Part shown: one piece after another, positions 3,339 to 7,573 of the stretch
Numbering within the stretch: the first letter of the stretch is position 1
How the letters are laid out: every line of letters starts with the position of its first letter
From: Pseudobdellovibrionaceae bacterium
GTDB lineage: Bacteria; Bdellovibrionota; Bdellovibrionia; Bdellovibrionales; JAMPXM01
Assembly: GCA_913776405.1 (NCBI GenBank)
Contig: CAJYOV010000018.1
Coordinates: 1-17,026, forward strand
Direction of reading: 5' to 3'
DNA length: 17,026 nt
Notes under the pieces: generated by a model
The model's database searches: none
What the model was told of the DNA's origin: nothing
Seen by the model: the letters and a program-made list of their open reading frames with translations, nothing else
Position numbers and translations under genes: made by a program

Positions 3339-3341
3339 ATC

Positions 3342-3379
3342 AAAGAAGCCACCCGGTAAAGGTGGCTTCTTTGCGTTTA
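3342..3379 (+). terminator. Rho-independent terminator of lon
   Basis: A perfect 12-bp stem AAAGAAGCCACC (3342-3353) / GGTGGCTTCTTT (3361-3372) closes a 7-base loop. The T-tract is interrupted (TTCTTTGCGTTT). It begins 56 bases after the lon stop codon. Confidence 0.85.
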
Positions 3380-3539: not shown

Positions 3540-4244
3540 ATGGATCTTCGTCTAGTCCTATTCACTCCATCTCAATTTGACGGAAAAGAATCGCAGTCGA
3601 TCGCAATCGAAAATCGAAGCTTTGAATTTTGGCGAGCGCGATGGCAAAAGCTCTACGACGATATCGGCGCTTCTCAGGCGTTCAAACTTGATGACTTCTA
3701 CCGACAGAGCTTGATCGGAACGATACTGAATGGAGACGAGCCAATCGCGTTGTGGGCGCATTCAAGATTTCACACGAGCAGTCTCGCTTGCCGCGCGCAT
3801 TCCTATTTTAAATTCTATGACCAGCAATTTCTCGATTGGCTAAACGAGCGCAAGCTCCCTCAAGTCATGTCCCTCGAGTTTTTCACCGTAGCAGAAGATT
3901 TTATTAAGAGAGATAAATCACAAGCCTCTTTCGCAAGAGTGATGGCTGGCTTAGCACATAAGATCTTTCTTGAATCAGATGCCGATGCACTGATTGCACC
4001 CGCTCGCGTAGATGTTGGTGTTGCCCACTTAGCTTATGAAATAGGTTACGAGTGCGTACGAGCCTCGACGCAACAGCGAGGATTTGAATGTGATCTGATC
4101 GCGTGTCGTCGAGAGAATGTTCGAAGCACTCCCCACGAAGCATCTCGACTTTTAATCGAGAGCTTATGGGAAAACCGAAATCAGATCACCACTCGAACTC
4201 AAGAACGCCAGCCTGAAATAAACCCGCTACCTCGCGTAGCTTAG
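3540..4244 (+). CDS. GNAT-like (possible N-acyltransferase) protein of unknown substrate
   Basis: 234 residues from ATG 3540. A GTG at 3459 in the same frame would add 27 Lys-rich residues, but neither start has a strong SD, so the start is uncertain. There is no signal peptide or membrane segment. The middle reads like a GNAT fold: a basic/aromatic entry helix (KLDDFYRQSLIGTI), a beta strand (EPIALWAHSRF), a core strand (VMSLEFFTVAEDF), a long helix, then an APARVDVGVAHLAYEIGYEC segment resembling the late GNAT motif that ends in a glycine-aromatic turn. FeeM-type N-acyl amino acid synthases are one family it could resemble, but no diagnostic residue was confirmed. The TAG stop lies three bases before the next possible ATG, so it is surely co-transcribed with the diiron-protein gene. 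The acyltransferase reading is inference; that it is a real gene is well supported. Confidence 0.7.
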   Translation: MDLRLVLFTPSQFDGKESQSIAIENRSFEFWRARWQKLYDDIGASQAFKLDDFYRQSLIGTILNGDEPIALWAHSRFHTSSLACRAHSYFKFYDQQFLDWLNERKLPQVMSLEFFTVAEDFIKRDKSQASFARVMAGLAHKIFLESDADALIAPARVDVGVAHLAYEIGYECVRASTQQRGFECDLIACRRENVRSTPHEASRLLIESLWENRNQITTRTQERQPEINPLPRVA

Positions 4245-4247
4245 GAG
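4243..4247 (+). promoter_or_regulatory. SD that decides the start of the diiron gene
   Basis: AGGAG at 4243-4247 overlaps the TAG stop of the preceding gene. It directly abuts ATG 4248 (zero spacing, unfavourable) but stands six bases before GTG 4254 in the same frame. GTG 4254 is therefore preferred as the start. Confidence 0.6.
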
Positions 4248-4253
4248 ATGACT

Positions 4254-4892
4254 GTGTCTAATTTAAAAAAGGTGTACGCAGAATCTGTAGAGCAACTGAC
4301 AAAATCGATGATGGCGTTCCCATGGGAAGATCCTGCAATGTACGCAGGCTTTCTTGCTCAAACCTACTACTACACTCGACACTCGACGAAACTTCTAACC
4401 CTGGCCTCGAGTCGTTTCAGTTTTGACGACTATGATCTTCATCGACGTTTCCTCGTGCACGCACAAGAAGAGCGTGGGCATGAGTTTATGTGCGAAAAGG
4501 ACATGCAATTTCTTGGCTACTCGATCAAGCAGTTTGACGAACTTATCGCAACCGCCGCGTTCTATCAGCGCCAGTATTATCTTATAGAACACGTCGATCC
4601 CGCTTGCTTCCTCGGGTACGTGCTCTGTTTAGAAGGATTATCGGCAAAAGGCGCAGGCCCGGCGCGCGCAAAGGTCCTTGAGCATCACACCGAGAGATCA
4701 ACTCTGTTCCTACGAGCTCACTCAGATGAAGATCCCGATCATATCGAGAAAGCCTTCAAAGCATTAGACGCTTTATCGCCATCACGCCAAGCCTTCGTAA
4801 GAGAAAATCTTCTGGCAAGTAGCGAGTTGTACGACCGAATGATGAAAGGCGTAAGAGATCTGGGAAAGGTCGGTATCAAGAAAGCATCTTGA
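4254..4892 (+). CDS. Heme-oxygenase-like diiron (HDO/TenA-like) protein
   Basis: 212 residues from GTG 4254 (214 if ATG 4248 is used). The protein is almost wholly helical and has no signal peptide. It carries the full metal-ligand pattern of heme-oxygenase-like diiron oxygenases such as UndA and relatives. E73-x2-H76 lies in a QEERGHE helix, E127 lies in CLEG, and H156-x3-D160-x2-H163 lies in AHSDEDPDH. Family knowledge: these proteins bind two Fe(II), activate O2, and oxidise fatty acids or amino-acid-like substrates; non-catalytic relatives exist (TenA-like, CADD-like). It directly follows the GNAT-like gene, suggesting one small-molecule pathway or one modified substrate. The substrate cannot be read from the sequence. 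The fold and metal site are confident from the ligand spacing; the oxidase activity is inference. It converges on the - strand gene 12 bases downstream. Confidence 0.75.
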   Translation: MSNLKKVYAESVEQLTKSMMAFPWEDPAMYAGFLAQTYYYTRHSTKLLTLASSRFSFDDYDLHRRFLVHAQEERGHEFMCEKDMQFLGYSIKQFDELIATAAFYQRQYYLIEHVDPACFLGYVLCLEGLSAKGAGPARAKVLEHHTERSTLFLRAHSDEDPDHIEKAFKALDALSPSRQAFVRENLLASSELYDRMMKGVRDLGKVGIKKAS

Positions 4893-4904
4893 TCGACCGG
4901 GATG

Positions 4905-5612
4905 CTAGCTTTCCAGCACGCTCACAGTCGCTGAATACAACGGACCGACTACGCGCCCGCTTTGATCAGAGACTCGTGCGAGAACTTTTGATTCTACCCA
5001 GAATTGCTTCCGTTTCTGTGAAAAAGTCTCCTGAACGAGATGCGGAGGCCCGAGGTCAGTAATGATCTCGGCCTCTCCGCTAGCGAGCGTCGGCCAGTGT
5101 TTCATCAAACCCTCTGCAATCTTCGAGTCCCTCGAAAACAATTCAAAAAATTCGTGCGTCAGGATTTCTTCTAACGTGTAGGAGCAGACCTGCAAAAATC
5201 TGATGTTCGCTGTCTTCAGAGAAAAATCCGTACCGTAAATTTCAATGGTGTCGTCTTTGCCTATGAGTTCATAGACATCCGGAGGGACGCTCCATCCGAA
5301 TTTTTTCAGAGATGAACGGAGATAGAAGTGACCGGGATGTGTCCCGAGGATTCGTACTGAGTTGTCGAGAACCTCGTTAAGCAGGGACAAACGCGAAATC
5401 AATTTCCAGCGGCAATCTTCGTTCAAAGCCGCAAATCGCTCGTGATTCTTTCCATCAATCCTGGTCGCTAAATCGAGGCGACCTTGAAGCGCAGCCTTCT
5501 CGAAGCGTTTAAGCTCATCGCTATATGATGCAAACGAGGCTTTCGGCATTTCGTTCTTTGCAAAGTCCATGAAAGCCTTTCTATTCAGCGAGAGTACCTC
5601 GGTGAACGGCAT
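4905..5612 (-). CDS. Protein of unknown function with a possible C-terminal PAS domain
   Basis: 235 residues, ATG at 5610-5612, with a good SD (GGAAG) upstream. The N-terminal half (about 1-110) is charged and helical and is not recognised. Residues about 122-232 read like a divergent PAS sensor domain. They contain an IEIYGTDFSLKTAN opening, a YTLEEILTHEFFELF segment like the usual GYS-EEL-G words, and a closing QFWVESKVLARVSDQSGRVVG strand pair. PAS domains sense small molecules, redox or light, or mediate pairing. No kinase, cyclase or DNA-binding output domain is attached. It is the second gene of a two-gene operon, 12 bases after an HTH/coiled-coil protein, so it may feed a signal to that partner. 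The PAS call is by eye and moderate at best; the gene itself is solid. Confidence 0.65.
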   Translation of the reverse strand: MPFTEVLSLNRKAFMDFAKNEMPKASFASYSDELKRFEKAALQGRLDLATRIDGKNHERFAALNEDCRWKLISRLSLLNEVLDNSVRILGTHPGHFYLRSSLKKFGWSVPPDVYELIGKDDTIEIYGTDFSLKTANIRFLQVCSYTLEEILTHEFFELFSRDSKIAEGLMKHWPTLASGEAEIITDLGPPHLVQETFSQKRKQFWVESKVLARVSDQSGRVVGPLYSATVSVLES

Positions 5613-5624
5613 CTCGTCTTCCGA

Positions 5625-6140
5625 TTAAGCAGAGCCCCATTTTTGAAGAATTCCGCGCATGCGATCGTTATCGCTTTCGAGCACGCGAACGAGCGTTTTT
5701 AAATCGGCGACTTCTTCTTTTAGAAGAATCATCTGTTCTTCTTTTTCTTGAAGAATATTGGTGTACGCGCGTTTGAGTTCATTCAACAAGCGAGTCGCTG
5801 TCGAAAGAAGCGGCGCTTCGCCTTCAGCCTGGCCAAGCTCTTTGATCTTGCCTTCAGCTTCGAGCGTTTGCGGCGTGCTCTCAACAGGAGCGGCTTGTGC
5901 CATCTGGTGAGCGAGCGAAGGCGTGTGAGCCTGAGACTGCGTTTGAGGCTCAGCTTGAATGCGCGCTGTGGGCACGCCCGGGTGCGGGGCAACCGCTTCA
6001 GACGGAGCTTCATCCAAAATCAGATATTTCCCGTTATCGAAGCGGAACTGAATCTGGTTGTTTTTGATCCGCCGACGAAGGGTCGAGACGCTGATCTTAT
6101 ATTTGCTCGCATAGTCCGTAAGTATCAGCCAGTCAGTCAT
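5625..6140 (-). CDS. HTH DNA-binding protein with Pro/Gln linker and C-terminal coiled coil
   Basis: 171 residues from ATG 6138-6140, chosen because AGGAG stands 6 bases upstream; an in-frame ATG 15 codons earlier lacks this. Residues about 1-45 form a MerR/excisionase-type helix-turn-helix (ILTDYASKYKISVSTLRRRIK, then a short wing around FDNGKYLI). Residues about 46-110 are a flexible Pro, Gln and Ala-rich linker. Residues about 113-165 form a heptad-like coiled coil (NILQEKEEQMILLKEEVADL and onward). This layout, with no ligand domain, is like RacA-type chromosome-anchoring proteins or simple dimeric regulators; which one is not decidable here. It leads the operon with the PAS-like gene. 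Confidence 0.75.
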   Translation of the reverse strand: MTDWLILTDYASKYKISVSTLRRRIKNNQIQFRFDNGKYLILDEAPSEAVAPHPGVPTARIQAEPQTQSQAHTPSLAHQMAQAAPVESTPQTLEAEGKIKELGQAEGEAPLLSTATRLLNELKRAYTNILQEKEEQMILLKEEVADLKTLVRVLESDNDRMRGILQKWGSA

Positions 6141-6367: not shown

Positions 6368-7573
6368 ATGCGTCTGAGCGAGAAAAAGAAAATTGCCCTA
6401 GTTCTTAGTGGTGGCGGTATCAAGGCCGCAGCCTTTCACTTGGGCGTCTGCTTAGCCCTGCGCGAAAAGGGCTTCTCGTTTGCCGGCGGCTCCGCCGAAG
6501 ACGTCCACATGAAGTATTCGGACGATAAGTTAACCTTTAAAGTTTACGTAGGCTCTTCGGCCGGCGCGGTCATCTCGACGTTCTTGGCGAGCGGCTACAG
6601 CATCGAAGCGATTATTGATGCCTTCGAAAGGGGTGCCGCTTCCGATCTGAATCGCCTGACCCAACGGAAGAAAGTCTACGCACGTCTTAAGCCCCTGTCG
6701 TATCGAGATATGTTCGCGCTTAACGGCGGCAACTTTATGGATGTCGTGCCGAACTTCTTGCGCCGACGTTCAATCATGACAGGCGGCTTAGAGTCGCTCA
6801 TTAAAAATGGTTTTAAAATCAACGGTCTCTTCACCACCAAAGGGATCGAAAAGTATCTGCGCACTCACGTCGTGAAAGAGAATAGCTTTGCGAGCCTTGG
6901 CGTAGATCTCTTCATCGTCGGCACGCAGCTCAATCACTCTCGAAAAGTCATCTTCGGAAATTTCCCAGAGACTCGAAAAGATAAGAACATCAAGTACGCA
7001 GGCTTCGCGACGATTAGCGAAGCGGTGGCTGCAAGCGCGTCTTTGCCGCCCGTGTTTGCGCCTTACGGAATTCGAAACGAAAAGGGTAAAGAGATCTTCT
7101 TCTTCGATGGCGAAATTCGCGAAACGCTCTCAACTCACATTGCGGCCGACGCCGGAGCCGACCTCGTGATCTCAAGCTATTCCGTTCAGCCTTATCACTA
7201 CACGCCTGAGATGGGTTCGCTTCACAACTACGGAATTCCGTTGATCATCAACCAAGCGCTCTACCAGGTGATCGAACAGAAGATCGCAAAGCACATCGAG
7301 CATCAGCAAAATATCTCGGCGATCATGAGCGCGATCGACGGCTATTTCAAACAAGCTAATTTGCCGGATGAACACCGCGAAAAGCTGCTCGACATTGTTT
7401 CAAAGCGTGTGAATCACAAGCCCGGCGTCGACTACATCTACATCCACCCGAGCCCACAGGATCATGAGATGTTTTTCGTCGATCACTTCAGTCTCAACCC
7501 TGAGATTTTAGGCAAAATCGTACACATTGGCTTCAAAGCTGCACTTCAGGTGCTTCGCAAGATTGATCTCTAG
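6368..7573 (+). CDS. Patatin-like phospholipase
   Basis: 401 residues. A lipid acyl hydrolase with a Ser-Asp dyad. The oxyanion-hole motif GGGIKA is at residues 15-20, the nucleophile elbow GSSAG at 62-66 with Ser64, and the DG motif at Asp247-Gly248. All three catalytic elements are therefore intact. There is no signal peptide or transmembrane start, so it acts in the cytoplasm or leaves by a route that needs no Sec signal. The C-terminal 150 residues, after the patatin core, are helical and not recognised. The start is odd: GAAGG at 6363-6367 abuts ATG 6368 with no spacing, an in-frame stop lies at 6362-6364, and a CTG six bases downstream (6374) would have normal spacing. It stands alone, divergent from the HTH operon and convergent with the lipoprotein gene. 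Patatin-like lipases are common both in membrane turnover and as toxins or effectors. Confidence 0.93.
   Translation: MRLSEKKKIALVLSGGGIKAAAFHLGVCLALREKGFSFAGGSAEDVHMKYSDDKLTFKVYVGSSAGAVISTFLASGYSIEAIIDAFERGAASDLNRLTQRKKVYARLKPLSYRDMFALNGGNFMDVVPNFLRRRSIMTGGLESLIKNGFKINGLFTTKGIEKYLRTHVVKENSFASLGVDLFIVGTQLNHSRKVIFGNFPETRKDKNIKYAGFATISEAVAASASLPPVFAPYGIRNEKGKEIFFFDGEIRETLSTHIAADAGADLVISSYSVQPYHYTPEMGSLHNYGIPLIINQALYQVIEQKIAKHIEHQQNISAIMSAIDGYFKQANLPDEHREKLLDIVSKRVNHKPGVDYIYIHPSPQDHEMFFVDHFSLNPEILGKIVHIGFKAALQVLRKIDL

Follow-up and report, generated by a model that had tools for sequence, protein, structure and literature searches.

A FeeM-like acyltransferase gene and a heme-oxygenase-like diiron oxidase gene form a conserved, sensor-linked pair in Bdellovibrionota and may belong to a signaling module

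Introduction

FeeM-type enzymes form N-acyl amino acids, and in LuxI/LuxR systems the synthase gene lies next to the regulator gene. Here we describe a locus from a Pseudobdellovibrionaceae bacterium (phylum Bdellovibrionota) that, like LuxI/LuxR, has a putative synthase beside a putative regulator or receptor. It comprises genes for a predicted FeeM-like acyltransferase (p1), a heme-oxygenase-like diiron oxidase (HDO; p2), and a PAS-like protein (p3). The stretch that we analyzed ("the window") is contig CAJYOV010000018.1, 17,026 nucleotides (C18 of assembly GCA_913776405.1, or G000, which is 3.3 Mb and 84% complete). From computation we report the gene pair, the enzyme families, the ligand set, the linkage of the genes, two fusions, the exchange of partners, and the linkage to sensors. 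The p1-p2-p3 unit could be a compact synthase-plus-sensor module for an oxidized acyl product, which we consider to be close to an even call. We put somewhat less weight on a broader proposal, that these genes represent a new cell-cell signaling system. It would be widespread in Bdellovibrionota and extend to a few Proteobacteria, with a FeeM-like GNAT protein and an exchangeable oxidase (HDO, desaturase, or FAD oxidase) producing a family of oxidized acyl signals, to which exchangeable sensors (a PAS protein with an HTH protein, or a membrane histidine kinase) would respond.

HDOs are described as binding O2 at a diferrous site, often triggered by a substrate carboxylate that ligates Fe1; UndA and MboA are examples (PMC13108848, PMC13185094). 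In the TyzA-TyzC pathway, an amino acid is reported to be N-acylated and then desaturated with O2 (PMC10404671). The p1-p2 pair resembles the tyz and trz acyl-oxazolone pathways in that a FeeM-like N-acyltransferase is followed by an O2-dependent desaturase there (PMC10404671, PMC12856293), and the fused tailoring enzymes of trz (PMC12856293) recall fusions of p1 and p2. In contrast, tyz and trz rely for oxidation on a nitroreductase-superfamily flavoenzyme, which is accompanied by a ThiF-like cyclase; the accessible parts of these reports describe no HDO and no linked sensor. The ham cluster, which makes the signal valdiazen, includes the heme-oxygenase-like protein HamA and differs from our locus in having a non-ribosomal peptide synthetase (PMC5878181). 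Unlike LuxI/LuxR or ham, the p1-p2-p3 unit has a predicted O2-dependent oxidase and PAS-like or histidine-kinase-like sensors, and its signaling role is putative.

In the open-access literature that we searched, which leaves most subscription papers out of scope, we found neither a signal pair of an HDO and an acyltransferase nor an autoinducer synthase from Bdellovibrio described (including in the accessible text of PMC8461301). We considered PMC11072679 as a precedent for the HDO-acyltransferase combination and rejected it: in the accessible part of that paper, the heme oxygenase and the N-acyl synthase are separate mentions.

Conservation of the gene pair

In the window, p1 (234 amino acids) is encoded at 3540-4244 and p2 (214 amino acids) at 4248-4892, both on the + strand. 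A previous interpretation of this DNA from the letters and open reading frames (the sequence-only reading) had proposed a two-gene operon at 3540-4892, and both reading frames are indeed found there. It had also placed at most nine bases between the genes. This is correct because the stop codon of p1 (TAG at 4242-4244) is 3 bases from an ATG at 4248 and 9 bases from a GTG at 4254. The ATG abuts an AGGAG, and the GTG begins 6 bases downstream of it.

The main test of the sequence-only reading was whether the two genes stay adjacent across relatives, and they do. We searched 59 genomes, including the window's own, with thresholds of E = 0.001 for p2 and E = 0.01 for p1. p2 was found in 43 genomes and p1 in 44, and p1 was present at 29 of 30 p2 loci. 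At the one locus without p1, L003, about 0.5 kb of contig is left past p2. The pair is also carried by G038, from the same order.

Across 290 genomes of the phylum, p1 was found in 106 and p2 in 130. (For p2 and p3, these and later counts and pairings in the 290 genomes are among the matches listed, 150 for each.) p2 lies within 2.5 kb of 107 of the 134 p1 hits. p1 precedes p2 in 92 of these 107 pairs; the others are reversed (11), divergent (3), or convergent (1). Conversely, p1 adjoins 105 of 110 strong hits for p2. The five strong hits that lack p1 are kept in this denominator; at L220, p1 was found by the gene call, and in G202 and G248 the hit starts near a contig end. (Genes were called as the longest open reading frames, and p1 or p2 was lost at some loci, namely L141, L223, L086, and L088.) Furthermore, the p1 and p2 domains are naturally fused in a single frame in G003:C39 and in G289:C130, which belong to different families. 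G000 itself has a second p1-p2 pair, on contig C368.

In named records, the two genes adjoin at 26 of 31 loci (L081-L111), and these 26 include loci from Methylocystis, Methylosinus sporium, and Microbulbifer taiwanensis.

We rejected weaker HDO hits from other branches, as well as hits from Streptomyces, as parts of this unit. The weak hits to p2 scored 57-122 bits (versus 145-282 for the strong hits), and p1 adjoins just 2 of 40, both of which are fragments. p1 was found at none of the 22 loci L112-L133, which are from Streptomyces (20), Acidobacteria (one), and Rhizobiales (one).

p2 is an HDO with a predicted diiron site

p2 matches PF14518 (E = 1.1e-10, 42 bits versus a cut-off of 28.9) and has the three-histidine, three-carboxylate (3H/3C) ligand set with the motif of UndA and CADD. 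Numbered from the ATG at 4248, the predicted ligands are E75-x2-H78, E129, and H158-x3-D162-x2-H165. Their codons lie on the + strand at 4470-4472 (E75), 4479-4481 (H78), 4632-4634 (E129), 4719-4721 (H158), 4731-4733 (D162), and 4740-4742 (H165). The sequence-only reading had recognized the same six residues, which it counted from the GTG at 4254 (E73, H76, E127, H156, D160, and H163). The spacing that it described is present, and the match to PF14518 and the invariance of the ligands put it beyond chance. None of the six ligands varies among the 53 sequences that we aligned. Among 77 unique members of the family, including the window's, five of the ligands are found in 77/77 and H165 in 76/77; the sole exception, at L107, has Q.

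Profile searches with p2 matched 3dde (Sden_3740 from Shewanella) and MboA, which was the best match with a known activity (E = 1.7e-7). A confident structure model has a heme-oxygenase-like helical fold. Together with the Pfam match and the conserved ligands, these results bear out the assignment of p2 as an HDO, with a predicted diiron ligand set; we predict that it binds iron and turns over O2. It shares its fold and 3H/3C set with the superfamily of UndA, CADD, MboA, and 3dde (as reviewed in PMC13108848). The residue after the first ligand histidine is E or D in 73 of 77 members, and this is the place of Asp90, an extra ligand described for MboA (PMC13185094). p2 differs from these HDOs in that its gene is linked to those of a GNAT-like protein and a sensor. 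No reductase of the MboB type is labelled among the conserved neighbor clusters.

As a side observation, HDOs from the branch of 3dde occur in long frames, of 690-770 amino acids, at L155 and also at L157, L159, L160, L161, and L165. At L155 (G417:C1), the one long frame that we examined with Pfam, an AMP-binding ligase is fused to the HDO and a gene for a short-chain dehydrogenase/reductase adjoins. This type of fusion could hint at the function of PDB entry 3dde. Of 197 genomes from the order to which Photobacterium belongs, 37 gave HDO hits.

Profile comparisons relate p1 to FeeM and GNAT proteins

In the window, p1 matches no curated family above its cut-off, including the GNAT family models and the FeeM model (PF21926), and our family-model scans gave no match to autoinducer-synthase models. 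Acetyltransf_1 was touched by only 1 of 40 family members (E = 0.069). Searching a large database with the single sequence of p1 returned two proteins, one of which is a 98% copy.

In a profile-profile comparison, the profile of the 40 members matched FeeM at 96.3% (E = 1.6e-9, over 125 columns) and GNAT at 87.1% (E = 4e-6). As a positive control, the FeeM profile matched GNAT at 96.8% (E = 2.4e-10), and as negative controls, five unrelated alignments scored 1.42% or less against p1. The likeness of p1 to FeeM is at the level of profiles; about 10% of the aligned columns are identical. Because p1 does not reach the cut-off of PF21926, we describe it as FeeM-like and not as a member of FeeM. 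The proposal that p1 is an acyltransferase of the GNAT or N-acyl-synthase type is upheld by the controlled profile comparison and not by the single-sequence models. These comparisons support p1 as a FeeM-like GNAT acyltransferase, and we predict that it N-acylates an amino acid. (We took profile matches of p1 to an oomycete RxLR effector in PDB, with E = 0.03 and 0.04, to be due to chance.)

Linkage to sensors

By clustering the neighbors of the pair, we identified the p3 family, to which a protein in the window belongs (E = 5.5e-36; 4905-5612 on the - strand, 235 amino acids). p3 is convergent with p1-p2, and the stop codons are 12 bases apart. The p3 profile matched PAS_9 at 90.9% (E = 1.1e-6; controls, 1.2% or less), which indicates a relationship to PAS domains. 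No Pfam family matched p3 above its cut-off; PAS_4 gave E = 0.019 and 15.6 bits (versus 23.1).

p3 was found in 96 of the 290 genomes, and in 87 of the 290 it occurs together with p1 (odds ratio 89, p = 5e-44, Fisher's exact test ignoring kinship). For this count, p1 hits below 40 bits were dropped (4 of 134).

To quantify the linkage, we considered 104 paired p1 genes. A listed p3 match lies no more than 3 kb from 62 of them, which leaves 42 loci, 40 of which we fetched anew. Within two genes, p3 was found at 12 of these and a kinase-like gene at 26. The remaining two, L276 and L277, were scored as having neither, although a HisKA protein is encoded next door at L277. Of the last two of the 42 loci, L235 has an adjacent kinase and L140 has a frame that we judged by eye to be p3-like. 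Thus p3 or a kinase-like gene lies beside at least 101 of the 104 paired p1 genes. Linkage of a synthase gene to a receptor or regulator gene is a mark of quorum-sensing-type systems; here p1 would be the synthase, and p3 and the kinases are the presumed receptors.

The genome sets overlap, and we removed duplicates to obtain 76 unique p2 loci. Within two genes, 35 of these have p3, 33 have a kinase-like gene, and 8 have neither (L088, L092, L107, L109, L111, L221, L236, and L277). p3 occupies 30 of 145 first-neighbor places versus 0 of 270 places at distances 4-10, and kinase-like genes occupy 29 of 145 versus 7 of 270. We built the kinase profile from eight kinases adjacent to the pair; the part of this profile that covers the kinase itself picks up histidine kinases as a class. 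(At L259, the match is a frame of 245 amino acids with no Pfam domain.) Six adjacent kinases that we scanned all have HATPase_c, and three also have HisKA. By eye, we judged their N-terminal halves to be membrane parts.

Other regulators are found as well. A small gene for an XRE-type helix-turn-helix (HTH) protein, which we call p4-type, is within two genes at 20 of 35 p3 loci; Pfam identified the HTH on examples. The Microbulbifer pair has a divergent regulator of the GerE (LuxR) type, with a sub-threshold match to PAS_3, and a zetaproteobacterial FeeM-HDO pair also adjoins a divergent GerE-type regulator.

We considered whether the frame directly upstream of p3 (5628-6140 on the - strand) might be its DNA-binding partner and rejected this idea. 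We found matches to it in 57 of 58 relatives, some of which have no p1 or p2, and its listed places differ from those of p1 and p2. It is an uncharacterized core gene of the order, with weak coiled-coil-like matches only in Pfam.

Exchange of partners

Five of the loci L081-L111 lack p1 (L089, L092, L097, L098, and L107). At L092, from Zetaproteobacteria, a FeeM protein (E = 1.3e-29) replaces p1 beside the p2-clade HDO, and at L107, from Photobacterium sanctipauli, a GNAT protein that matches Acetyltransf_5 above its cut-off lies beside p2. The neighbors of p2 at L097 and L098 are short. L089:5403-8549 is a different biosynthetic setting and does not fit this pattern: the genes that adjoin the p2-clade HDO there code for a tryptophan-halogenase-like protein and an O-methyltransferase.

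Searching for FeeM in 114 genomes revealed HDOs of another branch of PF14518 within 4 kb of FeeM at six places (G066:C55, G017:C144, G108:C3, G034:C79, G091:C3, and G136:C103). This is a second association of an acyltransferase with an HDO.

Where p1 occurs without p2, other oxidases are often nearby: of 26 loci that we fetched, 9 have a membrane FA_desaturase and 3 have a FAD_binding_4 oxidase, one of which is fused to p1. (The desaturases at L142, L144, and L145 were assigned by family, and those at the other loci by sequence cluster.) At L246, a desaturase is present in addition to p1 and p2. At L144 (G266:C58), a module of p4, p3, p1, and desaturase occurs twice in tandem. We also built a quick tree from 90 p1 proteins, which has long branches and leaves 33 of its 87 forks open. 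On this tree, the oxidase label changes 15 times and the type of sensor 11 times.

A possible acyl-signal circuit

HDOs often bind a carboxylate, the products of FeeM retain one, and TyzA-TyzC provides a precedent, so we propose that p1 makes an N-acyl amino acid, which p2 desaturates or oxidatively decarboxylates. The acyl donor of p1 would be acyl-ACP (acyl carrier protein) or acyl-CoA, and the acceptor an amine, most likely an amino acid. The free carboxylate that the N-acylated product retains would bind one iron of p2. The diiron site would then activate O2, and the acyl amide that results would be desaturated, hydroxylated, or oxidatively decarboxylated. This final product may be a signal, because a sensor gene nearly always adjoins the pair in relatives; HamA sets a precedent for a heme-oxygenase-like protein in a signal cluster. 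The product would be sensed by the linked receptor, which would be the PAS-like p3 here and a histidine kinase elsewhere, with the small XRE-type protein accompanying p3 in many relatives. Such a module would work as a quorum-sensing circuit or as a self-regulating metabolite circuit. The sequence-only reading had suggested a modified lipid, amino acid, or signal, without evidence for a signal; the PAS, HTH, and histidine kinase neighbors now favor that option.

The substrate, reaction, product, export, ligand sensing, and signaling are all things that we infer. Several observations weigh against a signaling circuit. At L089, from Myxococcales, the neighbors of p2 are a halogenase and a methyltransferase, and no GNAT was found. 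One Bdellovibrio p1 subfamily (6 rows) has neither an oxidase nor a sensor nearby. No p4-type HTH gene is labelled near p3 in the window, and this p3 has L132 and A135 in place of a Q and an R that are kept in over 90% of the family. Of the 150 p3 matches listed, 71 are over 2.5 kb from p1 or a strong p2; these p3 proteins could be orphan receptors or unrelated sensors. Also, the linkage to sensors would suit a metabolite with control over its own genes.

The strongest alternative, which we consider unlikely but worth taking seriously, is that the pair makes an acylated, oxidized metabolite that is not a signal (such as a membrane aminolipid, an antimicrobial, or a metallophore), while the PAS protein or kinase only tunes its expression to stress, oxygen, or the metabolite itself. 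The same enzyme and linkage data fit this, the range of things sensed by PAS proteins and by histidine kinases is wide, and N-acyl amino acid derivatives such as those of tyz and trz and stieleriacine have no signaling role stated in the accessible parts of their reports (PMC10404671, PMC12856293, PMC12479983). However, the sensors swap between two kinds and yet almost always persist (at least 101 of 104), and a third kind of regulator lies beside the pair in other phyla, which is more receptor-like than ordinary regulation; and no export gene was found among the conserved neighbor clusters.

A second alternative, that p2 acts like UndA, with a fatty acid (free or activated) as its substrate, and that p1 uses the oxidized chain afterwards, seems improbable to us: the best profile match of known activity is MboA, which is reported to act on a peptide (PMC13185094), and FeeM products offer a carboxylate for an HDO to bind. 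Least probable of all is a stress-protection unit, in which p2 would limit oxidative stress as does DtpC from Acinetobacter (an HDO-like protein that shares an operon with katE and is reported to be required for desiccation tolerance; PMC13232832), p1 would act on proteins or small amines, and the PAS protein or kinase would sense oxygen or redox state, as PAS proteins often do, because there is no catalase or other stress gene among the conserved neighbor clusters listed, and the replacement of the HDO by desaturases or FAD oxidases, together with the FeeM partner, points to acyl-amide synthesis.

If the proposed signaling system is real, then Bdellovibrionota, a phylum that has received little study and that includes the best-known predators among bacteria, has an acyl-signal language of its own. 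The swapping of oxidases and sensors around p1 would then amount to a natural experiment in signal chemistry. The pair also provides a handle on the large uncharacterized part of the HDOs, those of PF14518 that travel with N-acyltransferases, for which N-acyl amino acids are an immediately testable class of substrates.

Other features of the region

p1 is preceded by a gene that we take to be lon, a name given from its sequence and not from a family search. Between the two is a terminator-like hairpin (3341-3373, + strand) with 13 pairs, a 7-base loop, and a T-rich tail. The region has 3 such sites versus 3.7 expected from shuffled sequences, which is no enrichment. A scan of the region for sigma-70 promoters found 0 sites (2.7 expected from shuffles), and we claim no promoter.

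The p1 proteins without an HDO, desaturase, or sensor nearby are from Bdellovibrio-like genomes (L199, L201, L202, L203, L207, and L209). Finally, the window encodes a patatin-like phospholipase at 6368-7573 on the + strand (PF01734, E = 2.1e-22), which also has a weak match, far under the cut-off, to an anti-phage phospholipase model.
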